64,000 nt of DNA from Apium graveolens. Its lineage: Eukaryota; Streptophyta; Magnoliopsida; Apiales; Apiaceae. Both the position numbers and the translations under genes were made by a program. The notes under the pieces were generated by a model. That model saw only the letters and a program-made list of their open reading frames with translations. It was not told the DNA's origin and made no database searches. Shown in pieces: positions 12,031-63,267 of this stretch (position 1 is the first letter of the stretch; each line of letters opens with the position of its first letter). Location of the stretch: assembly GCF_009905375.1 (NCBI RefSeq), contig NC_133649.1:236000201-236064200 (forward strand), in the 5' to 3' direction.

Positions 12031-12200
12031 TATATACGATAACGAACTACGCTTCTATCACGTTATTTATAAGGGTTCCCATAAGGGTTTTAACTGTCAG
12101 TACTACGTTAGGTAGTCCGACTATGAACTTGGCAAGAGTTCTTATTATCTTAGTGAACTTATTATTTTAACGTCACATCATCTCTGAGGTTTATAACGCT

Positions 12201-21131: not shown

Positions 21132-21179
21132 TTTCCGGAGAGTCTATTTATTTAAATAATATAGGTACCTTAAACATAT
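21130..21179. repeat. Right copy of the 50-bp terminal direct repeat of the caulimovirid
   Basis: Identical by eye to 12425-12474. On the viral strand it precedes the primer site. Its last base is shared with the TCACC target duplication, so the exact junction is uncertain by one or two bases. Confidence 0.85.
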
Positions 21180-23126
21180 CACCATAAAAAGGGTTTCTGA
21201 ATAATTTACATATTCTTTGCCATTATTACAATTCATAAATATACATAAGTCTGACACAACAAAAGTTGAAAGCCTAGCCTACTCGGTAGCTCCTACCTCA
21301 GCTACAACGGCATCAACGCCTACAGGAAACTGCAGGAACGTTTCCTAACCGCTCACGAATTGGGAGCTCGATTCTGTTCATCTTGTCTATTTGATGTTGT
21401 GTGATGAGAGAAGAAAGCAAGGGTGAGCAACAAACCCACCAAAATAATATGTACAATGATTAACAATATATGAGCATTCTCATAGTATTCATGAAAGTCT
21501 TGGTCAAGAAGAATTGAACCAAGTTTGTTATCTTAACGCGACCAAGTCGCAAAATATTCAGTATATATACATATATACTTTTCACAATCTTTGAAATCCT
21601 CTGACATGTATAATATACAAAGAGTTTCAAATTATAACTGTATAAAAATATCGTTGCAAGGTGATCTCATATATCTAACCTTGTCTCAACGTTTTTCTGA
21701 AAATCTTTGACATGCATAAGATAATCATTTACTAGATATAAGTTTAAAAGATGAAGTTACAAGATACTCCAATATACTTATATCTTTTCCGAATACTACT
21801 TGAACTACCACCATTCAAGTTATAATTAGTTCATCCCATAGATGAAGCTACACGACAAAACTTGTATAGAATTAATCTTTGAGATATCATCAAAATGAAA
21901 TGAAGTTACAAGATACTTCATTTGATGAAAACATCATTTTGAAAACTAGACCCTGCCAATACTTAATAATCGCCCAGCCGTAGCCTTTCTATCGAAGTGC
22001 TCTGGGAAGTGTTGCAGAAATATCCAACCGGATGATGAACTCATTATGGGAGTTTGTCACGCCAGGAAGACCACTTACGATGATCAGTCGTAGTAGTGCA
22101 ACCCCACCATTTTCTACATATAGAGGAGAACCTGTCGGATTTACTTGTCAACCGAACACTGGACTCCTAAGGAATAGACCGTCTTAGCGGAACTTCCAGG
22201 CCAATTGGGCCAATATAATAAGGCTGGGCCAGCGCCACTCGACCACTTACGCCACTCCTAGTTCAGATGAAATCCATGACTCTGAAACGTAAAGCTCGTC
22301 CCCACTTTCCCCAAGTAGAAACTTGTTGATACGGCTCCACCAAGAAGTCCTATCCAGTTGGAAAGGAAAACTCACCGATATTTCCCAGGCGATGCCTGTT
22401 AATGGATTAACTTGTTCCAAGAATTTTACTTCCCGAGTGTTGGGTAAGTAACCAAAAACTCTTTTATCAAAATAGCAACCTTGTTGCGAATATAAAACAC
22501 ACCACAGAGCCAGATCCCTCAGGTTTTGAGCGAGTATTTAAATCCCCTTCGAACGGAGGATCTTAAATATAAAAATGAGTTTTGGGATCCGCCCCAACTT
22601 TTTAAATCATTTTGAAGACTCGAAAACATTTTTAAGAATATTTGGAGTAATGCTGATTTAATAAAATAAATCAGTCCCAATATATTAGAAAATATCTTAA
22701 TATTATTATTTAAATAATATTCCCATAAAGAATAATCTTTATAAAAATAATTGAAGTAGAAGTTTTAAAACTTTTACTTGAAATGAATAATAAATAACCA
22801 AAGATATACTTATACGAAAGTATGATCTTTATTTGAATAATCGAAAATAAGTTTGATTATTGAAACATTATTCTTTAATAAAATAAAGAATATTATTTAG
22901 TAAATAAGCGGAGTCATAAGTCCTCGAATGAATATTCAAAAATAATATTCATTAAATAAAATAAACGGAGTCATATGTCCTCAAATGAATATTCAAAATA
23001 ATATTCATTAAATAAAATAAACGGAGTCATAAGTCCTCGAATGAATATCTTAGATAATATTCATTAAATAAAATAAAGTTATCGAATAAACCTTATTCGA
23101 TTAATAGTTTTGAAAACTATATCCAT

Positions 23127-23166
<40 letters not shown>

Positions 23167-25249
23167 TATACTCGGGAACATCGACTCCCGGTTTTTAGAA
23201 AATGTTCACCTTTGGGTCCCCTATACTAAGGGTATACGCAACTACCGCTTATCTCTAGCATAGGTATTATGCAACTTATAAGCAGTGGAATCAACAGATA
23301 TATATATCAAGATTTACAAAACAGGCATGCATATAAATATCATATCACATGCTCCAATATATCGCAAGACTTTGCTAATAATAATCATGCACTTATCACA
23401 AGATAATGCATATACATATGTACATCACAACAACAGTATAACGGGTAGAAAACTTGCCTGAGTGTTCCCGGATAGACTTAAGCTTAGAGTGGGTCCGATA
23501 ACCTATGAACAACAATATAAGTCGGAATTAAACCCCGGTCGCTTAAGAAACTAGACTTTAACCAATTAGAGCCCTAACGTTCGCTTTCGCGCTTAACGAT
23601 TCACTTAAGTCGCTCGAGTACCCTCGGCTCCACCATTTTTAATAAATTAACCATTAAGAGTTTTAAGGCGATTCTTTCGCGAGTACCTTACCAACTTCCT
23701 AATACACTTGACATAAATGTTTCATACTCCAATTAGTCATTTAAGGTCTTTAAACAATGTTTCAAAGTAAGGCGAGGGGTAATGGTTCGTTCGTGAAATG
23801 CCGTTATTAAAACGGTCGTTTCTCCTAAACCGTACATCGGATTCAAGCAAACCACATATCAAAACGTAGCTTGAAACATGAACTATCTAATCATGGCAAT
23901 GGTCAAAACCTAAAAGTGAGTTCATGGGTCCTGATGTTAAGAACAAAAACAGTCTAAAGTAAATCGGGCATTACGACGGCTATGTTTATGCGATTACCAA
24001 ATTTTATTCTACTCCAAATCAACCACAAACCAACCACAATTCAACCATAAAACCAAACTCCACCCATACCTCACTACAACAGCCCCAACACCTCAAGTTT
24101 TTCCAATTTATATTAATCTCAAACATGAACTAAAACTATTCTTAAGTTCTTTAACTAATAACCAAGATTTACAACTCCAAAAACATCACAAAACCAACTA
24201 ATCTCTACATACACAACAATCAAGCCTCTTATGAACTATAATACTCACGCTAAGCTCTTAACATTCATTAACAAAGCTAGGTTAAGAGATTATACCTTCC
24301 TTGAGAGTAGGAGTAACTAATTAGCTTGGAATCACCCTTGAAAGTCCTTATCCAAGCTTAATCTAAACAAAAACTCAAGAACAAAAAATTAAGTTCTTGA
24401 AAAACACTATTCACCCTCTTCTTCCATGATTTTTAGGAAGAAATTGTGAATGAATTTGAAGCTCAAACTTATAGGATAGCTATATCTATGCATAAGGAGT
24501 ATTAGATAATTACCTCACTAATTAACAAGGCTTGGATCTTGGATTTTGGATTTTCCTTCTTGAAAAAAAGAGAATGGCCGAGAGCTTTCTTGAAGAAAAT
24601 GAAGTCAACTTTGTGTTTTTGTGATTTTGTGATTTGTTTTGCTTGGTTGCTTGCTTTTGTTTTGATTTATTACTTTTAACCATGGTGAATTTTGTGTGGT
24701 TCTTAATTAACCAACAACACACTTCTCTTTGGTCATGCTTAGGTCATCATGTTATGTCATCCTCCCACACTTGTCCTCTTCTTATTGGTTTGATGACATC
24801 ACTCTCCACTAACCCTTTGATTAACTCCTAATTACTTGGCTAATGACCGCTGATCTGTTATACGGTTCGCTTAACTTTCGTTTTCGTTTATCGTTTGAGG
24901 GATCATACCCGGGATCTTATTACTTGGGTTTCCTTAACCTTTCTCAATACATTATATTCCTTTTATGATCCTCTCTTATAATCCTTTAATTTAAATCCTT
25001 TTTATCCTGTTACCTTATACTCAATTCTTTCGGTATCTGGTGGATTTTCGGGAAAAATCAAAGTGTTCGAATTTGGATTTTGACGATCTTTACATACACT
25101 TATTTATCATATAGAGTACTAATACGATATCAGAATAACAATAAAAGAACCCCTACATAGTGTGGCATGAAAAGTTTTCTTATTCAGCAATATCAGCAAA
25201 AACACTATTCATAAGGGTAAAAAAAATTCAAAATTTTGGGGTTATTACA
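21179..25249 (-). repeat. Right (5') LTR of Gypsy A, second part
   Basis: This resumes at TCACCATAAAAAGGG, exactly where the first part stopped, and continues to GTTATTACA. The two parts total about 4.28 kb, matching the left LTR. It contains the tandem repeat (about 22910-23080), the TA tract (about 23125-23170) and a second copy of the candidate exon (21297-21381), which here has one extra base. Confidence 0.9.
21297..21381 (-). pseudogene. Candidate pre-gag first exon in the 5' LTR of Gypsy A, one-base indel
   Basis: The same ATG (21381) and donor (GAG|GTAGGA, GT at 21296-21295) as in the left LTR, but the span is 85 rather than 84 bases. The extra base changes the frame after codon 14 and brings a stop. 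Either this copy decayed or the left copy lost a base. Confidence 0.35.
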
Positions 25250-27216: not shown

Positions 27217-27414
27217 ATGAAGACACAGAAAATCAGTAGCATCAAAATCTCTACTTTTGATATGACCAACTACACTCTATGGAAAAAGAAAATGTTGCTG
27301 TTTATCAGGATGGCCAATCCACTATACATTTAGATCCTCAAAAACGGGCCCTTCACTCATATGGTAAGAGTTGAGGAATCTACAGATGGAGACATGGTCA
27401 TTCCAGCTCATTAT
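27217..27414 (+). pseudogene. gag: Copia B gag, first fragment
   Basis: The ATG at 27217 opens a Gag N-terminus with FDMTNYTLWKKKMLLF, typical of Copia Gag (tyrosine-x-x-tryptophan-x-x-x-M region). It is cut at 27414 by Gypsy B; the target duplication is ATTAT (27410-27414 and 45181-45185). Confidence 0.7.
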
Positions 27415-27682
27415 TGTGACGCCCTCAATCTCGGGGTTAGAAAATGAGGACTCACACACCTTTAATCTAATAATTAAATAAGCATAAACCCCGATTAACT
27501 ACTAACAGGATCAACATGATAAAGTATGAGACAAGATTACAAATACCAAACATAAAATATAACTTACAACCCCAAAATATTATTAAATAAACATAATCGA
27601 TTCCGGCTGGGGACCGACATATAACCCATTGTATTTTTACAACTATCCTTCTAAGCGCTTGCTCACTCAGAAATACCACTAC

Positions 27683-27763
27683 CTTCTCTAGCAACCGGAA
27701 GCCCTCAACACAATAAGGACCACCAGGTACGCTCTTACGAGCAGTGCGCCTAAGCCTGGCCAT
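27683..27763 (-). CDS. H3-tail-like LTR exon, copy in the 3' LTR of Gypsy B
   Basis: The same 27-codon exon as at 41184-41264, beginning MARLRRTARKSVPGG, with donor AAG|GTAGTG (GT at 27682-27681). It differs from the other copy at three residues near the end but keeps the first 17 unchanged. Being in the 3' LTR it would not normally head a transcript of this element. An out-of-frame ATG lies 19 bases upstream. Confidence 0.5.
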
Positions 27764-30481
27764 CTTCTTGCTTAACTGCCATGGTTAGATTAAAACAAAA
27801 CATATGAGTATAAAACTCAGCAAGTAAGTATATAGCAGTTCTACAATATTAAATCCACAATATACTTTACCAAACTTAGGGAATTCGACTTTATTTGATC
27901 TAGGTGGCAGATTTCCAGCTTTTGGGTTAAGGAAAGGTATTGAAGGAACAATATGGAGCTTTTAAGAAACAGGGCTCAACGTAGGATGAAAGCCGACATT
28001 CATCACAAATCATTAAAGGATCAGAATAGATCTTTCAGAAAGAGGAAAGCAAAGGTATTTCACTATATGGAATCAATTATATGGTCAACAGATTAAAAAA
28101 AAATCAGGGTTCTTGAGCTTTAAGCTTCACACTAACATAATCAACTCTTTTCAAAACAATATAAACCATTCTTCATTTTCAAGAATCAATTTCTGAACAG
28201 GAAATTTCAGTTTCATTTTAGGTAATCAATATAGAACCCTTGATTGGACAACTTTATCGATCAGCCCGTACCGACCTCCATCCGGTCTTTAAGGTACCAT
28301 ACGGCATAATTTCAGCCTTAAACTGGACTAGCCCCGCTAGACTCTTACAATGACTGGACTAGTCCCACTAGCCTCTTACGTCCAATCCAATCCATCAGGA
28401 ATTCGTTTGGAAAACCTTGAGTTGGAAAAAGTAGGTTTTCTAAATTCATTTTTATCATTACCAGGAATATGAAATCATTCGGACTCTTTCGAGTCGAAAC
28501 TCATTCTTAAGTCAAATTTCAAGAAAACAAAGTTTGGGGAGTGATTCAAGACAAGCAAGGAACAACTTTAAGGATTCTTTATCAAGGATAACAAGGTACT
28601 TAAAATAGAAGGATCAACATCTGTTTAGGGATCAATAGTGTGATCAAGAAGTGAGGTATCATTAAATAGGGTTTGCAAGGATAATCATAGGGTTCAATAC
28701 AATTCATGGCTTAATAAATGACTTGAACAGAAAGGACAGGTTACCAAAAGGGTTGAATCAGTAAGCTTATCAATAACAGTGTATCAGAATCAAAACAGGA
28801 TATCTCAAGTCATTAACAGGGGTTCATTATTAACGGTTCCATACTCTTCATGGTATGAACAACACCCTCTCTATAACCATTTTCACAAGTAATGAGAGTT
28901 ACTTGCCTGAATTTGCTTTCCTGAAGGTTGAACTACTGCCACCTAGTATACCCTTTCCTTTCCTCGCCTGAATGCCCTCACGCTCCGGATCTACAATAAA
29001 ACCAAAATCTTAATCAGTTCTCAACTCTCGTTCCCAGAACGATCACTCAATTATGATAGCTCGATTATACTCTTGACTCAAATATACGAGTATAGCTTAT
29101 ACACATAAGCACATAGCACATAACACATTCCTTTCTCGTAACCTTTATATCTTTATATACATATCGATCGACGCGTACTTGCTTAACCTTAACTATTTCT
29201 TAAATCACACCAATATAACTCTTACGAGTACATGATTTATTCACAATTAAACCTTTTAGGACCATAACTGTCACTTATAGTTCTTTAATAACAAACCATT
29301 TAATTCCCTTTTTCTTTTATTCCTTAATTCGAACCATAACAACAACCAATAACACAAATGAATCACATATCTCCTAGGATTTCATATGCAATCACTTAGC
29401 AAGGTATTGGAACCAAATCAGTCGCTTTTCTACTTATATACCATTCGGCCATACACGCAAAACACAACCACGTATACTCAATTTCAATCTCATATAATCA
29501 AACACAAATAATGCAAATCACAAGAGTCATTTACGCAATTAAACTTCATCCTTTTTAATCAAAAATCCAAATCATAATCACATTAGAATCAAAAATCAAC
29601 ACCTTCTTTTAATTATCAAAATTTGAACACAAACATCATCCAATCATTGTCATGCAATCAAGTTCTCACTAGCCACTAAGATATTTAGCAAAAATCAACT
29701 TAATTCTCTTTTTAAGCATAAGACCCATTCGGGTTTTCCAATAATCATGCATGCAAGGATCAATTTTTGACATGCAAAGTTTTATATCATATTTCCAACT
29801 TGTTTTAAACCTTAACTTAGTCTTTTGACTTATTTTCATCAAAATTTTTGAATCACAAACAAAACATCAATAATGACTCGGGCTTTAATCAAATTATTCA
29901 ATCGACAAGCATGCATTCACTTAATCATCAAGTAAATCTCTTCTAGACCCATTTTTTATTCGGCTAAAATCAAGATTCACAACTCAAGGACTAAACATTG
30001 ACATGCATTACTTGTTCTTCTTTAAAACTAACATGCAATCACATTTTTCACTAATTAGGCTTAGCTTTTACTAAGATCAAGTCATCAAATCCAAATCTCC
30101 CTTTTTATTAGTACAAAGCCGAACCAAAATCCCCAACATGCAACCCTCAAACTTAATTTTCTAAACATCAAATCATTTACACACACATCAATAATCAAAA
30201 CAAATCCATTTCCAATCACATACTCAAGTTTTAAAGGAAATACCAAAAACTCTTTTGATCTTTCAAAAACCAAACATGCAAGGCTTAAAATTCATATTAA
30301 CACCTCATTAAAGTTCCACCGGCTCTCCTTAGATCATAGCCGGTGGTGGTCGAACTTAAGAGAGCCCGCAACGGGTCTCCTCTTGAGTTTTAAACCAAAT
30401 AATGCTCTTGAATTTACTCTTATAGTTTTGTATCAAGAAATCAATGTCCTTGAACACAACCATAGAGATCATCCCCAAAAC

Positions 30482-33400
30482 TGTAATATTCGGGATATAT
30501 CGTGTAATTATTTTTTCTAATAAATAATTAATATATGTGTTCCGTATTTTTTCTGTGAATTATTTGTTAAGTGTTAAATGTGTTTGGATGTTTAAAAATA
30601 TTATTAATTGAGTATTTTAATTTTTATATGTCCAAAATAAAATATAGATAATTGTCATATCTTCCTAATTATTTTTATGTTGATTTATGAATTTATAGGA
30701 ATCATATGAATTTTATAATATCTTTTTCCGGGTATTTAAAATCTATTTTATAAAAACGGGAACCAACCGACGTCATCTGTTGTTACGTTTTTAGAACCCG
30801 AAACTCTTCCGAGAACTCCTTCCTAACCCAATTGTAATATTCCGAGCATTTTCCATGTTTTGACTTTTTCGATCCGGCGTACGGTTTGTCCTTCGCGGGT
30901 CCTGGCGCAACATTTTCGATACAATATTCGTTTTGGTAAATCAATAAAACTCGTATTTTCGGTAAACGGGAGCTTTTTATTAAACTATCACAATTATCAC
31001 CTCGTAGTACGTGTAACCAGGCGCTGAGACCAAGACCGCAGTACAAATTGTACTAATTTGGATAATTATCCCGAAAACCGATACCGTTTGGATCAGTTTT
31101 TACAAATAAACGTACCGTTTTATATCCGGAATGATCCAACGGGATACTAATTTTCTGTAATTATAAATAGCCTTTTACCGTATTTTATTTCGTATCAAAA
31201 TCATTTGAAGTCAGCTAAATATATAATTTTTCAGAGAAAAACCTTATATTCATATAATCTTCTGAAAATCAAACCACAAATCGAAGGTGTTATTGATCTC
31301 TGTTTTCAAAGCTTGAGTAACCAAAACGAAGGATTTGAGGAGTACTATCAGATTCTGAGCTTCGTTTTACTGCAGAAATCATGGTTATTTTTCTATATTT
31401 TTATTTAATTTCGATTTTTTTTAAAAAAATATGAATTTATGTTCGGATGATTGTTTGTATGATTTGATGATTGCATGTTGTAGAGCTTGTTTTCCTGATG
31501 ATTTTCATATGTCATACGTCTTATTTGGAGTTCAATAACATGTTCAAAATTGAGTTTAATTTTCGAATTTTGAAATTAGGGTTTATAACCCGTATGAATA
31601 TTTTCAATTGAAATTTGGGCCTTTTTGATTTAGGGGTTATTAGCTGTTGATTTATAGTGGGTTGTGTTCCTTATGAAATTTGTAATCAATTGGTATATAG
31701 CTCGTTAACGGAGGATTAGTGAATCGAAGGGAGTTGTGTTTTGAAGATTTACGATGTTCGCCAGGAAACTAGCGATGTTCTTGGCCAATTTCCGGCCAAG
31801 TCTGGGGTATTGATGTGTTTTGATTGCATGTATAGATTCCTGGTGATATGTAGTTTAATTCTGGAGCTTGTGGTGGTGTGGCTGTACCTGGATCGCCTTC
31901 TCCGGCGAGACAGGGTATTTTCCGGCGAAGTTCGACGGTGAACTTTGCAAAATTTCATTTCAGTCCCTGAGGTTTTGAAAACGAAACAGTTAGGTCCCTG
32001 AGGTTTCTAGAACTTGCAAATTTTGGATTCCTGTTTTAAAAATATTCAAAATCATATTCCCTATTTATTTTTATTATAGAAATTCGATTTTAATTTCTGA
32101 AAATTCCAAAAATTATTATTTTAATTCCAAAAATTATTTTTAATTCAAAAATAAATCTGAATTAATTAGTTAATTAATTTCAGTTAATTTTTAATTGGTT
32201 AATTAGTCAATTAATTCAAAAATTAATTGATTAATTGATTAAATTAATTATTAATTGATTTTAGTTAATTATTTAATTAGATTTAAATATTTAAAAATGA
32301 TTTAAAAATTCTGAAAAATAGTTTCGAGCTTTAAAATATTATTTTAAATTGTTTTCAAGGCTCGATAATTATTATAAAATTGTTTTGAAGCCAGAATTGG
32401 CTAGCCGAACCCTGTTTATTACTCCAAAATTGATCCAACGATCCGTTTTAATTCCGAAAAATATTTTAAAAATCATTTTAAACATCCGAAAGCCTGTTTA
32501 TGACCCGAGACTTCGTTATAAACGTTATATCGTTGATTATGTGACGTGTTATGTGCTATATGTGACTTGTTGGTTAACTGTCGGTCTATATATTCGATGT
32601 TTACTTGTTTATTGCGTAACTTTCAATCCGTTAATCGGATTTGGGTGAAACGAAGGGTAGATAGAAGTATGTGTCGAATAGAATCGTATAAGTTGAATAT
32701 TGATAGATGTTTATGATATGTGAGCAGAAGAGGCAAGGCGTAGGAAAGGGAAACAAGTAGTCGAGGAGTAAGACAGTCGTGACTGAAAGCGAGTGCAGTA
32801 TAATAAGCTAGTACCAGGCAAGTGTTCTGAACTTTCTCGAAATATTGTAGTGATTGATAGTCATGTTTTATATTGCAAGTGCTTTGAAGCACTGAACCCT
32901 AAACCCTGATTCCAGTTATTGATCTTGAGTCGTAAACCTGATTCTTTCTAGACCATTGATTGTTGTATACCCAAATACGAACCTCAAATATACGATACTA
33001 CTCCACAATTACATACAGACTAAATATCAAACACTGAACCAGATTGCTTACATACTCAAACCATTGTATCTTATGCTTTGAAAGGCCAAATCCTTGAAAC
33101 CTTGAAACATTGTTTCCTTTGTTATCCAATTCTTTCACTACCTAGCATCCATACTTTAAAATTGCCATATTGATCCTTATGCAGATTGAAACCATTTTCA
33201 TTATTGAACGTCCAATGTTGTTAATGATTTTGTTTATTGCTTATTACTGTTTATTCTGTTATTATGTTAGAATTGGATTGTTTTTATAAAATTGTGGACC
33301 AGATTCGTGGTCAGACCATATAATGGTCAAGTTAGGCCAATATATGCCTTGGATCCAGTAGTTAGAGCAGTGCTGTGTGCTTTGCTCGGGGTTAGTGCGT

Positions 33401-33928
33401 GACTGATCAGCAGCCTAACCTTGGTTTTTAAAATGAAAATATAATATTCAATTCTAAATCATAATCTATTGTTCACTTGACATCATAACCATATTCACCT
33501 GATGATCATTATTCTCAGTTTTGTCACTATGACTTGCTGAGCTAGTTAGCTCATTTGTGCGATATTGTTTATGTTATTTTCCAGTTAAGAAGGAACCGGT
33601 TGGTACCGAGGATCCCCAGTCCAGCGCGAGAGCTAGGGGTTCAGGTTGATCGAGTTGAGCTAGTAGGCTTCTTCTGGAATAATTTAAGTTTGTAAAAGTT
33701 GTAATATTGTTAATTACTCAGCTCTGAATTGGAATAGTTGGGATTCGAATGTTTGTAATATAAGTAAGTGTGTTTGGCTTATGTGCATACTTTAACCTGT
33801 TGCGGTCCGTGGTAGTTGGTAAGTAGGATCACTGCATATTATTATTATCTTTATTATTGTTATAAGCAGGTTATAAATAGTGTGTGTGTGGACCCCAAAC
33901 TTCTGACCCAGGTTTGGAGGGCGCCACA
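30482..33928 (+). mobile_element. Solo LTR (3.4 kb) of a third chromovirus-like Gypsy family
   Basis: Begins TGTAATATTCGGG and ends GGAGGGCGCCACA, with the perfect duplication AAAAC on both sides (30477-30481 and 33929-33933). No gag-pol, primer site or polypurine tract is present, and no second LTR. Near its right end ACTTGCTGAGCTAGTTAGCTC and CCAGTTAAGAAGG resemble the equivalent part of the Gypsy B LTR on the other strand, so it is a related family in plus orientation. It probably formed by recombination between two LTRs. Confidence 0.8.
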
Positions 33929-35112
33929 AAAACACTTACACAAATACTTACATGCAAATGGAATTTGAGAAGTATACCGAAAATAGCAACTATAGAGAGC
34001 AATATCTTTGAGTTTGAGTGAAGATTAAGTGTTGCATGCAAGAGAGAGATAAGAGAGATGGAGGGAGCCGAGAGAGAGAGAGAGTAGCCGAGAGAGAGTG
34101 AAGAAAAGAAAGAAAAAGAAAAGGGGAAATGGGGTGCACGGGAAAAGAAAAGAAAGGGGGGGGGGAGATGGGTTTATAAACTATCAAAGACAAGGGCAAT
34201 TTAGTAATATACTAAATCCCTTTTATGCTTATTTGATCCTTTCTTTTTACTCAAACATAATAAAAATCAAATATAAAATATATCTCTCTCGGAAAGTCAA
34301 AAATTATTGCAAATGACAATTTTAATACGTAGATCTCGAAATTAGCTTTCCAACCATTACTCATAATAAACTTTTGAGCGAACGGTTGATTTTATATGAA
34401 TTACGCAAGCTCGCCTTAATAATAACATTTTTCCACATAAAAATCAATTTAAAATGCAATGACCACCAAATAAATCTATTCATCATTTTTAAAAAGTCTC
34501 TAGGACTACTATGAAGATAACAAAACAAATCCCATGTTTTTATCTTACTCTGATAATTTTATAAAAATACGCGAAGGTTAAATAAACCTTAATTTAAATC
34601 AAATAATTCCTTTAAATTCATAAAAATATCACAGAGCACATAGTCATGCACACAGATAAGAAATCACACATATACGATCACATAACAACTCAGGTTTGAT
34701 CAGAGAATTTGTCCTTCTTTAATCTTTATCCTTTTTTTATGCGTACCGGGTCACGTTCAGCCTGACGGCGCGACGCTCAGCGTTTCGATTACGCTTCTCA
34801 TTATCATGATCGACCGACACATCACTGAGGACGAAATACTTTATTTACACATTGATTTCATTCAATCACACATAATTCACATTTTATATTCTTTAACTCC
34901 TTATTAGGACGGGTTCCGTTCTACCTTACGGCCCGACAACACAGCTTAACTCCTAAGCTGACTCTTTAAATTGAAACATTTTTATTTACGCTCCTATATT
35001 CTAATATACAGAACAGACAATTAATCAACACTTAATCACATAATTATTATCACATCACATAAAGCATACTTTATTGACTTAATTATGTCATAAAATTCTC
35101 AGTCGTCACAAT

Positions 35113-35150: not shown

Positions 35151-35549
35151 CTAAGCAAATAGATGGGGATACTTTTCTTTCATTTCGCTTTCTAATTCCC
35201 AAGTTGATTCTTCAACTAGTGGATTTCTCCACAATACTCTAACTAAAGGTACAACTTTATTCCTGAGTGTCCTCTCTTTTCGGTCCAAAATTCGTACTGG
35301 TTGTTCCACATAAGACAAATCTGGTTGGATTTCCACTGGTTCCAACTCGATCACATGGCTCGCATCAGCATTATACTTTTTCAAAAGAGATTACATGAAA
35401 TACATTGTGCAGATGTTGCATTTGCGGAGGTAGCGCCAACTCATATGCAACTTTCCCAACTCGTCGCAATACTTCAAATGGTCCAATATACCTAGGACTC
35501 AACTTCCCTTTCTTTCTGAATCGGGTTAAACCTTTCCAAGGAGATATCT
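35151..35549 (-). pseudogene. Gypsy B integrase C-terminus with chromodomain-type tail
   Basis: The open part (35151-35384) reads ELEPVEIQPDLSYVEQPVRI, then VLWRNPLVEESTWELESEM, the tail found in Tekay/Del-type chromoviruses and very like that of Gypsy A. The part from 35385 to 35549 holds the GPY/F-like region in a shifted frame. Chromodomain-type tails are linked to targeting of histone-marked chromatin, which is relevant to the H3-like peptide encoded by the same element. Confidence 0.7.
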
Positions 35550-36431
35550 TTATAAGACTTTGTCTCCAGATTCGAATTGCACATCTTTTCGTTCTTGATT
35601 TGCGTACTTTGCTTGGCGATCCTGAGCTGTAATTAATCTTTTTCGAATCATTTCTACCTTTTCCTTTGTTTGTTGAACTAGCTCTGGGCCAATTAATTTG
35701 CGCTCACCAACTTCGTCCCAATATGTTGGGGACCTACATTTTCTTCCATACAACGCCTCATAAGGCGGCATGCCAATACTCGCGTGATAACTGTTGTTGT
35801 AGGAAAATTCAATTAACGGCAAATGATCATCCCAATTTCCTTTGAAATCTATTGCACAGCTTCGCAACATATCTTCAATTGTCTGAATTATCCTTTCATT
35901 TTGTCCGTCCGTCTGTGGATGATATGCCGTACTCATTTTCAACTTAGTTCCCAAATGATCATGGAATTGTCTCTAAAATCTCGAGTTGAACCTTGGATCT
36001 CTATCAGACACGATAAATATAGGAACTCCATGACGCATCACAATCTCATCCAAATACAATTTGACCAACTTTTCCAACAAAAACCTTTCATTTATCGGCA
36101 AGAAATGTGATGACTTTGTCAATCGATCGATTACCACCCAAATCACATCATGATTTGACTTGGTTTTAGGTAATCCTACCACGAAATCCATCGCTATATG
36201 CTCCCATTTCCATTCTGGTATATCCAGGGGCTGAAGCAATCCGCTCGGCCTTTGATGTTCCGCTTTGACTCTTTGGCACGTATAACATTTACTTATCCAT
36301 TCTGCAATTTCCTTCTTCATGTTTGGCCACCAATAACTTTCTTTTAAATCCTGGTACATTTTCGTACTTCCAGGGTGAATTGAAAATCTCGAGTTATGCG
36401 CTTCTTGCAAAATCTCGTGCTTTAGTTCCAC
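35550..36431 (-). pseudogene. Gypsy B integrase, zinc-binding and catalytic core, one stop
   Basis: From 36431: the H2C2 zinc domain ([20 protein letters not shown], then CYTCQRVK), the catalytic core with [11 protein letters not shown] (first Asp), [10 protein letters not shown] (second Asp) and [16 protein letters not shown] (Glu). An in-frame stop at 35973 splits it where a Trp codon would be expected. RNase H lies upstream in the same frame. Confidence 0.85.
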
Positions 36432-36443
36432 GACATTAGGTAT

Positions 36444-37299
36444 CTAAATACGTGAGTTAACACGGTATATTCCTTTTCCATCCTTTTGAGCTTTAATTTC
36501 TTCTCCCGTCAACTTATCCTTTTCGCGATTCATTACTTGCTCTTGACAGCATCGAATCTTTTCCAAAATTTCGGGTTGAAATGACATCGCATATATAGCT
36601 TCACCTCCAAATTCGGGAGTCTGCACCTCTATTTCCATCTTTTCAAAATCCTTGATCAATTCTTCCGATGACGTTAACATATTCAATCTTTCCTTGCGAC
36701 TTAGAGCGTCTACTACCTCATTTGCCTTTCTAGGATGATAGTTTATCGCACAATCATAATCTTTGATCAATTTCAACCACCTTCTTTGTCTCATATTCAA
36801 TTCCTTTTGAGTGAAGATATACTTTAAACTATTATGATCTGTGTAAATCTCGGACTTTTCCCCGTACAAATAATGCCTCCAAATCTTAAGGGCAAACACA
36901 ATTGCTGCCAATTCCAAATCATGCGTTGGATACTTTTGCTCGTGCGGCTTGAGTTTTCTTGACGCATATGCTATTAACTTTCCGTGTTGCATTAACACAC
37001 ATCTAAGTCCTTTATATGAAGCATCACTGTATCTCACAAATTCCACTTTTTCATCTGGTAATACCAATACTGGGGCGGTTACCAACCTTTTCTTTAACTC
37101 TTGAAAACTTTCTTCGCACTTTTCCGTCCATACAAACTTCTCGTTCTTTCCTTGTCAACTTCGTTAACGGGACGAAAATCTTAGTGAAATCTTGCACAAA
37201 CCTCCTGTAATATCTGGCTAATCCCAGAAAACTTCTGACTTCCGTAGGAGTCTTGAGTCTTTCCCAATTCATTACAGCTTCTATCTTGGCTAGGTCCAC
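36444..37299 (-). pseudogene. Gypsy B RT thumb/connection and RNase H
   Basis: 37051-37299 holds the RT thumb (VRSFLGLARYYRRFVQDF) in one frame. 36444-37085 holds RNase H in another: [49 protein letters not shown] and the end [15 protein letters not shown] frameshift joins them. The Asp-Glu-Asp set of RNase H is present. Confidence 0.85.
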
Positions 37300-37315
37300 T
37301 TTGATTCCTTCTTTA

Positions 37316-38200
37316 TTAACTACATGACCTAAGAAATTGCACTTCCTTTAGCCAAAATTCACACTTTGAAAACTTAGCGTACAGCTTCTCTTTTCTCAGA
37401 ATTTCCAAGGAAATCCTCAAATGCTCCTTATGATCTTCTTCTGTCTTGGAGTAAATCAGTATATCGTCGATAAACACAATAACGAACTTATCCAAATATT
37501 GCTTGAACACTCTGTTCATAAGATCCATAAATGCGGCTGGCGCATTCGTCAAGCCAAATGCCATTACCAAAAACTCGTAGTGCCCATATCTCATTCGAAA
37601 TGCTGTCTTGGGTATATCTTTCGCTTTAATCTTTAATTGATGATACCCAGATCTTAAATCAATCTTGGAGAAACACGAAGCTCCTTTTAACTGGTCAAAC
37701 AAGTCATCGATCCGCTGTAGAGGGTACTTATTCTTAATCGTCAATTTATTCAATTCGTGATAATCAATGCACAACCTCATACTTCCATCCTTTTTCTTTA
37801 CAAATAACACCGGTGCGCCCCACGGGGATACACTCGGTCGGATTACTCCTTTGTCCAACAATTCTTGCAACTGAGCTGCCAATTCCTTCATTTCAACTGG
37901 CGCCATGCGATAAGGAGCTTTCGATACTGGTTCCGTTCCAGGAGCCAAATCAATCGTAAACTCGATCTCTCTGTCTGGAGGTAGTCCAGGCAATTCATCA
38001 GGAAATACATCCGAAAAATCTCTTACTATCGGAATATCCTCGATCCTTAAAGATTCCTTCTCCATATCCATGACATGAGCCAAATAAACTTCGCATCCTT
38101 GACGTATTAATCTTCTCGCCTCAATAACCGTTAGGAATTTCTTCTCTTGCCTCTTTCCTTTGAATATCACCTTTGCACCATCCTTGGTTCTTAACTTCAC
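37316..38200 (-). pseudogene. Gypsy B reverse transcriptase palm and fingers
   Basis: 294 open codons. RT motifs in order: [71 protein letters not shown] (catalytic IDD variant of Ty3/Gypsy) and [18 protein letters not shown]. The frame ends by a shift just after that. The N-terminus overlaps the protease frame, so one polyprotein was split by a frame change near 38150-38200. Confidence 0.9.
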
Positions 38201-38900
38201 CTTTACTTTTACATTTTATTTGCGCTTCATGGTTTGACAACCAATCCATTCCTAGTATAACCTGAAATTCTCCTAACTTAAAGGGAATTAAGTCAGCAGA
38301 AAAGTGCCGACCTTTCATAGTCACATCACAATCAGGACAAATCTTATTAACAATAACTTTCTCTTGATTTGCTACCTCTATAATCAAATTAGGTTCCAGA
38401 GGGTACGCAACAAAATTTAACTTATCAAGAATACTTTCAGAGATAAAAGATCTAGTTGCTCCAGAATCCATCAATACTTTTACTTCTACTGAGTTAATAA
38501 CAAGCATACCTGCTACCACGTCCACATCTTGCACCGCATCTTTCATTGTCATATTAAAGGTCCTAGCTCTGGGTTGAGCTGATGGTGCTGGGAGAGACGG
38601 CGGTCCAGCAATCCTGAGAACATTAGCCTTCTGAACAGGCTCTTTACAATTCCTGGCCATATGGCCCACTTTACCACACTTGAAACAAGCCAAATCAAGC
38701 TTCCTCGCTCCACTTAGGCATTCTGAAGAGTAATGCCCCTTCTGGTTGCACTTAAAACACGTCACATCCAACTTATTACACCTTCCCGGGTGTCTCTTTC
38801 CACAATTCTTGCATTCCTGAATCTGAGGTCTGTTATCCTTCCCCGGTTGTCCTATTTTCTTGAAACGATTCTTCTAAGCTCCATTACTGGGTTTAAACTT
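38121..38900 (-). pseudogene. Gypsy B Gag zinc knuckles and protease
   Basis: The open frame 38121-38771 has two CCHC knuckles (CFKCNQKGHYSSEC and CFKCGKVGHMARNC) and the retropepsin VKVLMDSGATRSFIS with FQVILGMDWLSNHEA. A further Cys-rich finger lies just upstream in the same frame, interrupted by stops. Gag and pol appear to share a frame here. Confidence 0.85.
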
Positions 38901-39659
38901 CTGAAACTTTTAGTTCTGACCTCCACCATTTTTGCCAAATTTTCCTCTAAACTTTGAACTCCCTTGCTCTTGCTCTGAGCTTTCAAATTTCCTCTTTCTT
39001 CCTTCATTTTCTCTCCTCGCAGCTTCACGCTCACCTTCCACTATCATTGCCTTTTATACCAAGGAAGCATAATTCTTGATCTCCAACAATGCTACTTGAC
39101 TCCTAACCCACGGCTTAAGTCCCTATTGGAACCTCTTAGCCTTCTTTGCCTCTATATTCACATATTCAGTTACAAATCTAGACAATTCCGAGAACTTCAC
39201 TTCATACTCCGCTACTGACATATCCTCCTGTCTTAAGTCCAGAAATTTCATTTCCAATTGATCTTGCATATAACTCGGAAAATACTTCTCCAGAAATATC
39301 TCAGTGAACTTCTCCCATGTTAAGTCCTTACCTTCCAACAACGCCTTCGAAAACTCCCACCAGAAACTTGCTTCGTCTTTAAGGTAATAACTTGCATACT
39401 GAGCTTTCTTGTCATCCTTAACTTCTGCTAACTCAAAAGCTTTTTCCATTTCTCTCAACCACGAATGAGCTTTGATCGGGTCTGGCAAACCTAAGAATTT
39501 TGGGGGATGAACAGATTGAAAGTGTTTGAAGTTTCCAACTTTAGGGGCCACAGGTTGTTGCAAAAGTTGAGCAAGTCTGCTTATCATGGTGGTTTCTGGG
39601 TTTACTTCTGGGTCTTGGGTTGGAATTTCTTCTTCTTGGTGATCTAGTGAGTTGGCCAT
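38901..39659 (-). pseudogene. gag: Gypsy B Gag capsid region
   Basis: ATG at 39659. 178 codons contain the retrotrans-gag domain (VHPPKFLGLPDPIKAHSWLR, then DEASFWWEF, then FTEIFLEKYFPSYMQ). The stop at 39123-39125 falls at a place where related elements have Gln, and the same frame runs on with further stops at Gln-like places, the pattern expected from cytosine deamination. Gag forms the virus-like particle. Confidence 0.85.
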
Positions 39660-40188: not shown

Positions 40189-40679
40189 CTAATCATCTAG
40201 AATCTCTCTCAACACAACCAACATCCAGCGAATGATCTTATGCAGCCTCCGGGCCTCAGCATCAGCTTTACTAGTGGATGGTCCCTCATCCAATCTCCTT
40301 CTGGCAACCTGCTCCACCATCTTCACCCGAACTCGCCACTCATCATCCATAACTAAAGCACTCTGCCTAGACTTTCGGGCTAGCCTATCCACCAAAGCTC
40401 CCAACTCAGGAATACTAGAGTAAACAAAGTCTCGGTCCTGGGCTAACTTGCCACCAACACTGACAGGTACAGTCTTAGGCATCTCAGACTCTGGCTGGCA
40501 GGGGTCTCTGAATCTGGCCTCAAGGGTGAAATCTGCATAGGGATCTCACTACTCTCAGAAGGGTCCTCCTCTGGGTCTGAACTAACATACACAGGCTCCT
40601 ATGGAGAGGGTGGAATGGGGTCCTCTGGGGTACCAGTCAAACTAATATCTAGGTCTGAGTCACTATCACTACTAGGATC
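40189..40679 (-). CDS. Candidate exon 2 of the pre-gag gene of Gypsy B
   Basis: It follows an excellent acceptor, a T-rich tract ending TTTTCTCTCAG, with AG at 40681-40680. In phase 0 from exon 1 it reads an acidic segment DPSSDSDSDLDISLTGTPED, an in-frame TAG at 40601-40599, then more acidic Ser/Glu/Pro sequence. A frameshift near 40500 leads into an open 97-codon frame (40482-40189). That part is basic and helical and contains LVDRLARKSRQSA and EWRVRVKMVEQVARRR before a stop. With exon 1 the product would be about 190 residues. I do not recognise the domain. The stop and shift mean this copy is broken; the splice is predicted, not shown. Confidence 0.5.
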
Positions 40680-41183
40680 CTGAGAGAAAACACAAAACAA
40701 CAACCAAGAAACAATGTTAGGGTTAAATAAAGCTTCCACTCACACCCTAACTCTAGTTTCCAATCTAACTGATACACACTTTTCTTAGACTATACCTAAT
40801 AGTCTAACTCAACTCTATATGAGTTGAACTCTCTCGCGATATACATATACCCAAGATACCCCTTTTTATTCCTAACTTGTCTCAGGGACTAGATCCTGTA
40901 GCTCTGATACCAACTTGTGACGCCCTCAATCTCGGGGTTAGAAAATGAGGACTCACACACCTTTAATCTAATAATTAAATAAGCATAAACCGCGATTAAC
41001 TACTAACATGATCAATAGGATAAAGTATGAGACAAGATTACAACTACCAAACATAAAATATAACTTACAACCCCAAAATATTATTAAATAAACATAATCG
41101 ATTCCGGCTGGGAACCGATAGATAACCCATTGTATCTTTACAACTTTCCTTCTAAGCGCTTGCTCACTCAGAAATACCACTAC
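40680..41183 (-). other. Predicted intron of the Gypsy B pre-gag gene, containing the primer site
   Basis: Donor CAG|GTAGTG at 41184/41183, acceptor CTCTCAG at 40680, length 504 bases, AT-rich with a T-rich 3' end. It spans the end of the 5' LTR (40916) and the primer site (40901-40912). Spliced RNA would therefore lack the primer site and serve only as mRNA. Confidence 0.45.
40901..40912 (-). promoter_or_regulatory. Primer binding site of Gypsy B
   Basis: On the minus strand this is TGGTATCAGAGC, three bases from the right LTR; the initiator tRNA-Met type. Confidence 0.85.
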
Positions 41184-44100
41184 CTGCTCTGGCAACCGGA
41201 AGCCCTCAACGCGATAGGGACCACCAGGTACGCTCTTACGAGCAGTGCGCCTAAGCCTAGCCATCTTCTTGCTTAACTTTCATGGTTAGATTAAAACAAA
41301 ACATATGAGTATAAAACTCAGCAAGTAAGTATATAGCAGTTCTACAATATTAAATCCACAATATACTTTACCAAACTCAGGGCATTCGACTTTATTTGAT
41401 CTAGGTGGCAGATTTCCAGCTTTTGGGTTAAGGAAAGGTTTTGAAGGAACAATATGGAGCTTTAAAGAAACAGGGCTCAACGTAGGACGAAAGCCGACAT
41501 TCATCACAAATCATTAAAGGATCAGAATAGAACTTTCAGAGGAAAGCAAAGGTATTTCACTATATGTAATCAATTATATGATCAACAGATTAAAAAAAAT
41601 CAGGGTACTCGAGCTTTAAGCTTCACATTAACATAATCAACTCTTTTCAAAACAATATAAACCATTCTTCATTTTCAAGAATCAATTTCTGAATAGGAAA
41701 TTTCAGTTTCATTTTAGGTAATCAATATAGAACCCTTGATTGGACAACTTTATCTTTCCATTTCATTATAATACGGGTGATCAGCCCGTACCGACCTCCA
41801 TCCGGTCTTTAAGGTACCATACGGCATAATTTCAGCCTTAAACTAGACTAGCCCCGCTCGCCTCTAACAATGACTAGACTAGTCGCACTAGCCTCTTACG
41901 TCCAATCCAATCCATAAGGAATTCGTTTGGAAAACCTTGAGTTGGAAAAAGTAGGTTTTCTAAATTCATTTTTATCATTACCAGGAATATGAAATCATTC
42001 GGACTTTTTCGAGTCAAAACTCATTCTTAAGTCAAATTTCAAGAAAACAAAGTTTGGGGAGTGATTCAAGACAAGCAAGGAACAACTCTAAGCATTCTGT
42101 ATCAAGGATAACAAGGTACTTAAAATAGAAGGATCAACATCTGTTTAGGGATCAATAGTGTGATCAAGAAGTGAGGTATCATTAAATAGGGTTTGCAAGG
42201 ATAATCATAGGGTTCAATACAATTCATGGCTTAATAAATGACTTGAACAGAAAGGACAGGTTACCAAAAGGGTTGAATCAGTAAGCTTATCAATAACAGT
42301 GTATCAGAATCAAAACAAGATATCTCAAGTCATTAACAGGGGTTCATTAATTAAAAATTCCATACTCTTCATGGTATGAACAACAACCTCTCTATAACCA
42401 ATTTCACAAGTAATGAGAGTTACTTGCCTGAATTTGCTTTCCTGAAGGTTGAACTACTGCCACCTAGTATACCCTTTCCTTTCCTAGCCTGGATGCCCTC
42501 ACGCTCCGGATCTACAATAAAACCAAAATCTTAATCAGTTCTCAACTCTCGTTCCCAGAACGATCACTCAATTACGATAGCTCGATTATACTCTTGACTC
42601 AAATATACGAGTATAGGTTATACACATAAGCACATAGCACATAACACATTCCTTTCTCGTAACCTTTATATCTTTATATACTTATCGATCGACCCGTACT
42701 TGTTTAACCTTAACTATTACTCAAATCACACCAATATAACTCTTACGAGTACATGATTTAGTCACAACTAAACCTTTTGTGACCATAACTGTCACTTATA
42801 GTTCTTTAATAACAAACCATTTAATTCCCTTTTTCTTTTATTCCTTAATTCAAACCATAACAACAACCAATCACACAAATGAATCACATATATCCTAGGA
42901 TTTCACATGCAATCACTTAGCAAGGTATTGGAACCAAATCAGTCACTTTTCTACTTATATACCATTCGGCCATACATGCAAAACACAACCACGTATACTT
43001 AATTTCAATCTCATATAATCAAACACAAATAATGCAAATCACAAGAGTTATTTACGCAATTAAACTTCATCCTTTTTAATCAAAAATCCGAATCATAATC
43101 ACATTAGAATCGAAAGTCAACACCTTCTTTTAATTATCAAAATTCGAACACAAACACCATCCAATCATTGTCATGCAATCAAGTTCTCACTAGCCACTAA
43201 GATATTTAGCAAAAATCAACTTAATTCTCTTTTTAAGCATAAGACCCATTCGGGTTTTACAATAATCATGCATGCAAGGATCAATTTTTGACATGCAAAG
43301 TTTTATATTATATTTCCAACTTGTTTTAAACCTTAACTTAGTATTTTGACTTATTTCATCAAAATTTTCGAATCACAAACAAAACATCAATAATGACTTG
43401 GGCTTTAATCAAATTATTCAATCGACAAGCATGCATTCACTTAATCATGAAGTAAATCTCTTCTAGACCCATTTTCTATTCGGCTAAAATCAAGATTCAC
43501 AACTCAAGGACTAAACGTTGACATGCATTACTTGTTTTTCTTTAAAACTAACATGCAATCACATTTTTCACTAATTAGGCTTAGCTTTTACTAAGATCAA
43601 GTCATCAAATCCAATTCTCCCTTTTAATTAGTATAAAGCCGAACCAAAATCCCTAACATGCAACCCTCAAATTTAATTTTCTAAGTATCAAATCATTTAC
43701 ACACACATCAATAATCAAAACAAATCCATTTCCAATCACATACTCAAGTTTTAAAGGAAATACCAAAAACTCTTTTGATCTTTCAAAAACCAAACATGCA
43801 AGGCTTAAAATTCATATTAACACATCATTAAAGTTCCACCGGCTCTCCTTAGATCATAGCTGGTGGTGGTCGAACTTAAGAGAGCTCGCAACGGGTCTCC
43901 TTTGAGTTTTAAACCACATAATCCTCTTGAATTTACTCTTATAGTTTTGTATCAAGAAATCAATGTCCTTGAACACAACCATAGAGATCATCCCCAAAAC
44001 ACTTACACAAATACTTACATGCAAATGGAATTTGAGAAGTATACCGAAAATAGCAACTATAGAGAGCAATATCTTTGAGTTTGAGTGAAGATTAGGTGTT

Positions 44101-45180
44101 GCATGCAAGAGAGAGAAGAGAGATGGAGGGAGCCGAGAGAGAGAGAGAGTAGCCGAGAGAGAGTGAAGAAAAGAAAGAAAAAGAAAGAGAGAAGGGGAAA
44201 TGGGGTGCACGGGAAAAGAAAAGAAAAGGGGGGGAGATGGGTTTATAAACTATCAAAGACAAGGGCAATTTAGTAATCTACTAAATCCCTTTTATGCTTA
44301 TTTGATCCTTTCTTTTTACTCAAACAAAATAAAAATCAAATATAAAATATATCTCTCTCGAAAAGTCGAAAATTATTGCAAATGACAATTTTAATATGTA
44401 GATCTCGAAATTAGCTTTCTAACCATTACTCATAATAAACTTTTGAGCGAACGGTTGATTTTATATGAATTACGCAATCTCGCCTTAATAATAATATTTT
44501 TCCACATAAAAATCAATTTAAAATGCAATGACCACCAAATAAATCTATTCATCATTTTTAAAAAGTCTCTAGGACTACTATGAAGATAACAAAACAAATC
44601 CCATGTTTTTATCTTACTCTGATAGTTTTGTAAAAATGCGCGAAGGTTAAATAAACCTTAATTTAAATCAAATAATTCCTTTAAATTCATAAAAATGTCA
44701 CAGAGCACATAGTCATGCACACAGATAAGCAATCACACATATACGATCACATAACAACTCAGGTTTGATCAGAGAATTTGTCTTTCTTTAATATTTATCC
44801 TTTTTTTACGCGTACCGGGTCACGTTCAGCCTGACGGCCCGACGCTCAACGTTTCGATTACGCTTCTCATTATCATTATCGACCGACACATCACTGAGGA
44901 CGAAATACTTTATTTACATATTTATTTCATTCAATCACACATAATTCACATTTTATATTCTTTAACTCCTTATTAGGACTGGTTCCGTTCTTCCTGACGG
45001 CCCTGACAACACAGCTTAACTCCTAAGCCGACTCTTTAAATTAGAACGCTTTTATTTACGCTCCTATATTATAATATACAGAAAAGACAATTAATCAAAA
45101 CTTAATCACATAATTATAATCACATCACATAAAGCATACTTTATTGACTTAATTACATCACAAAATTCTCAGTCGTCACA
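40916..45180 (-). repeat. Right (5') LTR of Gypsy B
   Basis: 4265 bp, TGTGACGCCC to CGTCACA, intact and uninterrupted. It matches the left LTR closely. It carries the H3-like exon at 41184-41264 and a GA-rich tract near 44110-44190. A TATA-like GTATATAAAG on the minus strand lies near 42670-42680, about 1.4 kb before the exon, but I cannot place the start site. Confidence 0.92.
41184..41264 (-). CDS. LTR-encoded first exon with histone H3 tail-like N-terminus (Gypsy B, 5' LTR)
   Basis: The ATG at 41264 opens 27 codons ending at the donor CAG|GTAGTG. The peptide begins MARLRRTARKSVPGGPYR. Against histone H3 (MARTKQTARKSTGG) it matches without gaps at Met, Ala1, Arg2, Thr6, Ala7, Arg8, Lys9 and Ser10, has Arg for Lys4, and has a Gly-Gly pair one residue late. 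With Ala second, Met removal would expose Ala-Arg as in H3. Without splicing the frame runs on through hydrophobic LTR translation to 40968, which looks unnatural. The copy in the 3' LTR encodes the same start. An upstream out-of-frame ATG lies 19 bases before. That it is translated is inference. Confidence 0.55.
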
Positions 45181-45185
45181 ATTAT

Positions 45186-46110
45186 GCTCCTAAAATTCTT
45201 CAGAATACACTGAGCCTGAGAAAGAAAAAGTTTCCCTAGATAGTGGCTTGTAGCTGATCTTAATAGAGTCACTTGACAATGCAATGTACAATAACATTGT
45301 CAACTGTGACACTGCTAAGCAGATCTGGGAAAAGATAGAGATGCTTTGTGAAGAAACTGAGGAAGTTAGATCTAATCAAAGAAAGATACTGATTTCACAG
45401 TATGAGGGTTTCATGGCTAAGCCAAAAGAAAGCATTACTGATGTGTTTGAAAGGTTTAACAAGCTGATTAATGACTTGCAGCTGCATGATAAATATTATG
45501 AAGCTGAAGTAGTGAACTTGAAGTTTTTTCTCAAACTCCCTGACCATTTGGAACAGAAAATTTCAGCAATTAGAGAAGGGAGAGACTTGAGCGAATTAAC
45601 TCTGGAAGTTCTATATGGAATCTTAAAAACATATGAATTGGAAATGATTCAAAGGAAATCATTAAGAGCTGGTCAAGGGCATGTTGTAGATGGTTCAAGT
45701 GCTCTTATTGTTAATGAAATCCAAACCTCTAATGATGAGCCAAGATTCCAGACTCCAAGTGTCTCAAATAGTGAGCAAAGAAATAATGATTCACAGGAGC
45801 AAGTCATACTTGAATTGGAGTAAGATGAGTTCTACACCCTGGATGAACTTGATGAGCTAGATCAGTCAATGGCCTATCTGACAAGAAAGTTCTCTAACAT
45901 AAGAGTAACTAAGCCAAGATTCTTCAAGGGAAAAGGATAATCATTCAACAAAGACAGCAGCTAGAAAGGAAAAGGGAAGTACACACTTGATAGCAAAAAT
46001 GGCTACAAAACTAGATCTATTGGCATATCAGGCTGTTTTGCTATAGAATGTAGGAAACCCAATAAATCAAAGAAAGACAAAGCTTATCTTGAACTGGAAG
46101 AAAAGTATGA
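45186..46110 (+). pseudogene. gag: Copia B gag, second fragment
   Basis: Continues the gag cut at 27414. The open frame 45284-45823 has the Copia Gag core: MYNNIVNCDTAKQIWEKIEM, then LISQYEGFMAKPKESITDVF, then LKFFLKLPDHLEQKISAI and LTLEVLYGILKTYELEM. A broken zinc knuckle (GCFAIECRKPNK) follows near 46025-46070. Stops occur at 45823 and later. Confidence 0.8.
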
Positions 46111-62692: not shown

Positions 62693-63131
62693 ATTCAGAA
62701 ATTATCTTAATTTCCAGGAATTTTTCCCTAATTTTCTGGGATTTATCCTTAATTTTCTGGGATTTATCCTTAATTTCTGGATTTTCCCTTAATTTCTGGA
62801 TTTTTCCCTTAATTTCTGGGATTTATCCTTAATTTCTGGATTTTTCCCTTAATTTCTGGGATTTATCCTTAATTTTCTGGGATTTATCCTTAATTTCTGG
62901 ATTTTCCCTTAATTTCTGGATTTTCCCCTTAATTTCTGGGATTTATCCTTAATTTCTGGATTTTTCCCTTAATTTCTGGGATTTATCCTTAATTTCTGGA
63001 TTTTTCCCTTAATTTCTGGGATTTATCCTTAATTTCTGGATTTTTCCCTTAATTTCTGGGATTTATCCTTAATTTCTGGATTTTTCCCTTAATTTCTGGG
63101 ATTTATCCTTAATTTCTGGATTTATTCCTTA
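62693..63131 (+). repeat. Minisatellite, 40-bp unit made of two similar 20-bp halves, about 10-11 copies
   Basis: The unit contains CCTTAATTTCTGGATTTTTC followed by a similar half with TTTCTGGGATTTATC. In 62941-63120 the period is exactly 40 bp; the flanks are less regular. It lies inside the LTR-like sequence. Confidence 0.9.
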
Positions 63132-63267
63132 TTTCTGAAAATATTAACATTTTTCAGAAACTATTTAAGGAATTTCCTTATTTTTTGTAATTTTCCAGGA
63201 TTTCTTCTTCCCTTTTTCTTCCTTTTTTCTTCCTTTTTTCTCTCTCTCCTTTTTTTTTTTATACAAT

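Follow-up and report, generated by a model that had tools for sequence, protein, structure and literature searches.

The window analysed in this study, a 64,000-nucleotide stretch of the celery (Apium graveolens) contig NC_133649.1, holds a chromovirus retrotransposon on the minus strand, and the long terminal repeat (LTR) of this element carries a small coding exon. The exon is 93 nt long (41184..41276, minus strand), has an AG immediately before 41276 and consists of a 12-nt leader TTAAGCAAGAAG followed by a coding part of 27 codons (41264-41184, MARLRRTARKSVPGGPYRVEGFRLPEQ). It is followed on the same strand by a phase-0 intron of 504 nt (40680..41183, GTAGTG...TCTCAG) covering the LTR end and the primer-binding site TGGTATCAGAGC (40901..40912), and by exon 2 (40189..40679), which encodes an acidic stretch and then a helical C-terminal domain with the end ...REILDD and a stop. 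The primer-binding site, of the tRNA-Met type by its motif, is spliced out with the intron; as it is absent from the spliced RNA, such RNA would by its anatomy be only a message and never a template. An earlier note on this DNA had described an ATG, 27 codons up to the donor CAG/GTAGTG (slash at the splice point) and, after 504 bases, a strong acceptor continuing in phase 0 into an acidic frame. Each of these features was found, with the ATG at 41264, the 27th codon ending at 41184, the intron at 41183-40680, the acceptor TCTCAG/GATCCT and a stop ending at 40189. The note had also stated that both LTR copies keep the peptide. The second copy of the coding part lies in the 3' LTR (27683..27763, minus strand, MARLRRTARKSVPGGPYCVEGFRLLEK), and the statement holds for residues 1-15, with one silent difference, but not beyond them, where the other LTR carries R18C, P25L and Q27K. 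The two coding parts differ at 6 of 81 bases; since the two LTRs are identical at insertion, their agreement is uninformative on selection. In the window, exon 2 has a frameshift near 40497 as well as a TAG in its reading frame near 40600, so this copy is unable to make the whole protein.

The splice product was found among the celery gene models. The protein search with the unspliced LTR frame as query gave 22 proteins of 22 candidates, and a second search gave 28 proteins of 60 candidates, P0025 included. The former matched celery gene models as well as unnamed fragments; in many of them the 27 residues are kept and the sequence diverges at or just past the donor. P0025 (191 aa), a celery model that NCBI labels isoform X3, is letter for letter the predicted splice product, from another locus. 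The locus L031 encodes residues 1-27 and 28-191 of P0025 exactly, on one strand and across an intron of 511 bases with donor CAG/GTAGTG and acceptor CTCTCAG/GATCCC, and a TAG follows the last residue; the splice proposed in the earlier note is thus annotated, at another copy. The same junction of exon 1 with exon 2 is present in P0019, P0024 and P0044. Conserved donor and acceptor, in-phase exons and a matching transcript model, as expected for a spliced gene, were therefore all found, in models and not in reads. The small pre-gag protein suggested earlier, with the LTR exon spliced to an acidic exon, is supported by the exact P0025 model, by splice sites kept in most copies and by constraint on the exon relative to the following LTR. 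The named matches of the protein searches came from celery alone, beside the unnamed fragments, and no relatives were confirmed in viral contigs or in bacterial and archaeal contigs. An N-terminal extension of gag was ruled out, since the splice product has its own stop before gag.

The conservation of the exon was analysed across the celery copies. The first-look candidates per query ranged from 3,266 to 12,182 places in the celery genome, which are not copy counts. Seventy loci (L031-L100) were selected for an exon 2 similar to P0025, with exon 1 ignored; they comprise the 30 best of 150 places scored, from 12,182 candidates, together with 40 of the 41 that ranked next. Exon 1 was ungapped at its expected place in 66 of the 70 (one plainly misaligned), and among these 66 the ATG was present in 64, the frame was stop-free in 63 and MARLRRTARKS was exact in 40. 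The donor CAG/GTAGTG or CAG/GTAGTA was kept in 60 of 66 and the acceptor TCAG/GA in 70 of 70, while the exon-2 frame was open in 60 of the 70 loci, themselves chosen by exon-2 protein similarity. For a second subfamily the best 150 of 4347 candidates were scored, and 241-base stretches at the predicted exon-1 position were taken for 20 of the first 26 rows, six with an exon-2 stop being left out; exon-1 sequence was present in 18 of 20 stretches, with one match of the last residues only and one with two stops. The check on other family copies proposed in the earlier note thus went in favour of the exon, as the open frame and the TARKS block are kept, the latter in the majority of copies and in each of the subfamilies read. 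An acceptor-like AG lies 12 bases 5' of the ATG in 80 of 82 copies and is used by gene models, so the LTR exon can serve as an internal (cassette) exon. The 12-nt leader has the lowest diversity of the region profiled (0.014), and the unit, with the leader and the preceding AG kept, looks like a 93-nt internal exon.

The variation in exon 1 was compared with that of its neighbourhood using 64 of the 70 rows, those whose identity to the window reached 80% in exon 1 and 75% in the flanks. Rare variants (fewer than 3 copies) were taken as post-insertion, and shared variants (at least 3 copies) lean to active lineages. Rare variants occurred with similar frequency at the sites of exon 1 (36/81), of the upstream sequence (45/105) and of the LTR intron (127/268). 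Shared variants affected fewer sites in exon 1 (9/81) than in the LTR intron (61/268, P 0.026) or in its first 81 bases (28/81, P 6e-4), and shared transversions numbered 1/81 against 30/268 (P 0.003) and 15/81 (P 3e-4) respectively. The diversity profile along 1.96 kb stayed at 0.032-0.039 from 41286 to 41179 and reached 0.167 in the following 27 bases, just beyond the donor. The expectation of the earlier note that the exon should vary more slowly than neutral LTR was thus borne out in part: shared variation is below that of the LTR after the donor, but not significantly below that of the bases upstream of the exon. The same profile contains further LTR blocks of low diversity. One such stretch at 41746-41907 (0.016 at 41881-41907, 0.022 at 41746-41772 and 0.035-0.067 between), with a TATTATAAT stretch near it, is possibly the promoter.

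Deeper copies were sampled with a P0023 search, in which the best 150 of 6972 candidates were scored and 20 places, both top and less similar, were hand-picked; of these, 17 form a third group and three are deeper loci (L134, L135 and L136). The proportions of nonsynonymous (pN) and synonymous (pS) differences in exon 1 were 0.064 and 0.194 between the two main groups and the third group, 0.077 and 0.351 between the main groups and the three deep loci, and 0.028 and 0.303 between the third group and the deep loci. In codons 1-17, compared with the commonest codons of the main groups, L134, L135 and L136 carry 4, 2 and 7 synonymous changes and 0 nonsynonymous ones, the replacements of the deep loci being confined to codons 18-26. 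An exon-2 search with a divergent P0040 piece located further places, the best 150 of 4087 candidates being scored. The exon-2 comparison of subfamilies A and B gave net nonsynonymous and synonymous divergences (dN, dS) of about 0.041 and about 0.094, with 3 B rows, too thin for weight. The exact gene model, the presence of exon 1 at its expected place, the low-diversity island and the purely synonymous changes of the deep loci in codons 1-17 together indicate a real and constrained gene, and the LTR exon is very probably the 5' coding part of a selected, spliced accessory gene.

The product of about 191 aa starts with a basic tail (residues 1-27), followed by a disordered middle that is acidic and rich in serine (28-104) and by helices towards the C-terminus (105-190). 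The AlphaFold2 model of P0025 has helices at 105-190 with the remainder unstructured and a mean pLDDT of 56. It is proposed that the 93-nt cassette exon would be spliced over the intron of ~0.5 kb, with the LTR end and primer-binding site, to the pre-gag exon, and that the message would give a nuclear accessory or regulatory protein of the element, which may for example aid export or expression of the unspliced RNA in the manner of CERV, a protein of the Cer1 element of Caenorhabditis elegans. The basic tail would be the nuclear-targeting, nucleic-acid- or chromatin-contacting end. The probability that this large chromovirus family of celery has here a nuclear protein of accessory or regulatory kind, with location and function as predicted, is put at about 0.55.

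Several observations weigh against this interpretation. The support for the splice is gene-model annotation and not RNA reads or protein; the parallel with CERV is one of layout, and the nuclear location and RNA binding are predictions. The P0025 model is poor, and the fold search gave 62 matches with E<=10 and none with E<=0.001. The rows used for variant counts had already passed a threshold of 80% exon-1 identity to the window. Exon 1 did not differ significantly from the 105 bases upstream, either in shared variants (19/105, P 0.22) or in shared transversions (8/105, P 0.08). By eye it also resembles the non-LTR part of the intron, where shared variants occupy 31/231 sites and shared transversions 11/231. 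Stops were present in 6 of 8 copies that were selected by DNA and have exon 2 downstream, and pN/pS was 0.95 for 6 usable loci. The low pN of the deep loci comes from loci picked by peptide similarity, which lowers pN. Exon 1 of the main groups lacks codon-position skew (diversity 0.023/0.053/0.040 at positions 1/2/3), with pN 0.040 and pS 0.046; if the differences within these groups are mostly post-insertion decay, pN near pS is expected, and it gives no verdict on peptide selection either way.

The evenness of the three codon positions in the main groups also bears on another explanation, in which the LTR exon is constrained as RNA, for a leader, splicing or translation control, and the peptide is incidental. 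The leader, as the least diverse part of the profiled region, fits such a constraint. It is nevertheless held to be rather unlikely, as the deep loci, though ascertained by peptide, have changed only synonymously in codons 1-17, and the exon-1 frame runs in phase into a long open exon 2. The explanation by neutral LTR sequence, with the open frame and the likeness to histone H3 arising by chance, is highly improbable. It can draw on the commonest changes of exon 1, C>T and G>A, which account for 14 apiece among 49 variants, as in post-insertion decay, and on the uncorrected number of implicit comparisons behind the earlier note; it was rejected on the conserved exon and splice sites, the low-diversity island ending at the donor, the shared-variant deficit and the exact public gene model, seen over many loci.

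The remaining explanation starts from the likeness of the first eleven residues to the N-terminus of histone H3. The identity at 8 of these 11 claimed in the earlier note was borne out, in a register including the K9 block; the H3 letters used agree with those of the note. A score of at least 7 matches was reached among the 2365 window ATGs of both strands by the LTR exon and its other-LTR copy only. In a simulation of 1,000,000 ATG-starts a score of 7 came up 3 times and a score of 8 never; when residues 2-15 of the peptide itself were shuffled 1,000,000 times, there were 144 scores of 7 and 5 of 8. These nulls are not a corrected P value, as the motifs and windows implicitly searched are uncounted. 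Residue conservation was calculated in 82 of 90 copies fetched, from the two main groups, and was 0.951 for the H3-matching residues, 0.935 for residues 4-6 and 0.977 for residues 12-22 (P 0.50). In these copies no selection focused on the H3-identical residues was found, these being no better conserved than the others, and A2 had the lowest value (0.83) save position 23. The conserved span is residues 1-22, including GGPYRVEGF, which is without H3 counterpart, and the H3-mismatching L4-R5-R6 is retained in the three deep loci. None of these loci comes closer to H3 than the window copy does, so neither an H3 origin nor a trend toward H3 is seen. Capture of an H3 fragment by homology found no support: the exon peptide gave no H3 and 0 matches up to E 10 with phmmer against PDB, and 0 matches in Pfam, both searches having little power for a 27-residue query.

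The H3K9 mimicry advanced in the earlier note was for these reasons not supported, and is held to be unlikely. In the form considered in this study, A-R-L-R-R-T-A-R-K-S stands, with Met removed, in register with H3 A1-S10, and the K9 equivalent would be methylated by plant H3K9 methyltransferases and would recruit or titrate H3K9me2 readers or bind the element's own integrase. The exact register, the rarity of the identity in both nulls and the wide retention of TARKS speak for it. As far as the covered parts of the sources go, the K9 context fits the EHMT pattern [GCSAKLN]RK[...] (PMC10611923), and 5 of 6 residues are kept in Q5-S10, the stretch mediating most animal HP1 contacts (PMC10611923, PMC6318295). 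The same sources also tell against it: the pattern occurs in over 17,000 proteins (PMC10611923), and the plant reader ADCP1 uses R2-K4-K9me2, where K4 is R in the LTR peptide (PMC6318295). A claim of a viral ARKS mimic is disputed in the part covered of a further report (PMC10833455). A broader form of the proposal concerns gene models joining the exon to host genes. Residues were joined upstream of the exon start in 11 of 44 proteins, mostly with an LSKK/R-M junction. In AgCh gene models the LTR exon is in frame with an apparently complete ribosomal L29-family protein (P0020), the host part of which presumably has its own start, with an Arf GTPase via longer read-through (P0034), with a p24/GOLD protein (P0017), with a malic-enzyme piece (P0015) and with an SDG2 C-terminal piece (P0014). 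In P0020 and P0034 the join passes through an apparent in-frame 5' leader sequence to the complete host protein. The fusion models lie on contigs of other lengths than those seen in the celery genome analysed and may be annotation artefacts; if they are true, the LTR exports a coding cassette exon. That the LTR encodes a portable cassette exon with an H3(1-10)-like tail, its splice product with the element's own acidic-helical exon acting as a decoy methylated at the K9 equivalent that titrates or redirects the H3K9me2/CMT3/ADCP1 silencing loop or the element's own chromodomain integrase, and the host fusions carrying the same tail, is considered doubtful.

The nuclear accessory protein thus remains the preferred reading of this gene. 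It would be a conserved accessory gene with a defined exon structure in a retrotransposon family with thousands of candidate places in a sequenced crop, and genes of such kind can be overlooked by size cut-offs and unspliced gene finding. Retroviruses are well known to have accessory proteins by which splicing, export or silencing is managed; for the retroelements of plants such proteins are, to our knowledge, scarcely described.

The element itself is bounded by a 5' LTR of 4265 bp (40916..45180, ends TGTGACG...CGTCACA) and a 3' LTR (27415..35112), both on the minus strand, and by a 5-bp target duplication ATTAT (27410-27414 and 45181-45185). The gag frame (39123..39659, minus strand; Retrotrans_gag, E 2.5e-15) is broken and starts ~530 bp beyond the exon-2 stop. 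Zinc-knuckle/protease, reverse transcriptase (RT), RNase H and integrase lie in separate broken frames, with a terminal chromodomain frame (together 35151..38771, minus strand). The chromodomain frame (35151-35384) matches Pfam PF00385 with E 1.7e-5 and 25.1 bits, just at the 25.1 cut-off. The order gag, protease, RT, RNase H, integrase and terminal Chromo frame is that of Ty3/gypsy and identifies the element as a chromovirus, as had been stated. The Kimura two-parameter (K2P) divergence of the LTRs is 0.032 (4233 aligned sites), from which an insertion age of about 1.2 million years is obtained if a rate of 1.3e-8 is assumed; the clade may be Tekay/Del. The 3' LTR is split by an insertion of 3.4 kb (TGTAATATTC...GCGCCACA, 30482-33928) with AAAAC at either side, which looks like another LTR element or solo LTR. 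The chromovirus is inserted in a Ty1/copia gag (27298-27417 and 45200-45553), both flanks of which are matched by celery model P0035. A second long-LTR pair (2651-6738 and 21171-25249) is about 4.1 kb long and 97% identical, and tblastn with four accessory-gene proteins gave no match there. A tandem array of ~40-bp units at 62702-63137 was revealed by self-BLAST.

The gene was compared with known systems, the statements on which follow the covered parts of the sources. The tails of H3 and of H3K9 mimics such as EHMT substrates (PMC10611923) share A1-R2 and T6-A7-R8-K9-S10 in register with the LTR peptide; T3, K4 and Q5 of H3 are absent from it and the remainder is unrelated, the likeness being one of sequence alone. 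Among the titles listed in the literature searches, which left most subscription journals outside their coverage, there was no H3 mimic in a plant transposon and no LTR exon of such kind; should the tail engage H3K9 readers, no earlier example from a plant transposon would be known as far as these searches go. CERV of Cer1 is a nuclear protein from a spliced mRNA and is needed for nuclear export of the unspliced genomic RNA (PMC10309623). Like the celery protein, it is encoded by a spliced subgenomic retrotransposon mRNA beside Gag and Pol and has no obvious homologues outside its group (PMC10309623). It differs in having 517 aa and five exons, with exons 1-3 in the gag frame, and in being experimentally nuclear (PMC10309623), whereas the celery gene has two coding exons, the first within the LTR, and a function proposed from layout. 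The additional open reading frames (aORF/eORF) of plant elements are likewise conserved extra proteins outside gag-pol in many copies (PMC7264820, PMC6317226). According to a review their most frequent position is between pol and the 3' LTR, whereas the celery gene occupies the LTR and pre-gag region, and no LTR-exon case occurs in the parts covered of this literature (PMC7264820, PMC6317226). The survey of plant extra frames counted only those of at least 250 codons (PMC7264820, PMC6317226), so the celery accessory gene would be missed by it. In Ogre, BARE and EVADE splicing also yields a translated subgenomic RNA (PMC12786077, PMC3735527), but there the splices adjust Gag or Gag-Pol, whereas the celery splice joins an LTR exon to a distinct pre-gag frame and drops the primer-binding site. 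BARE (PMC3735527) and EVADE (PMC12786077) nevertheless indicate that plant elements do maintain separate spliced messages.

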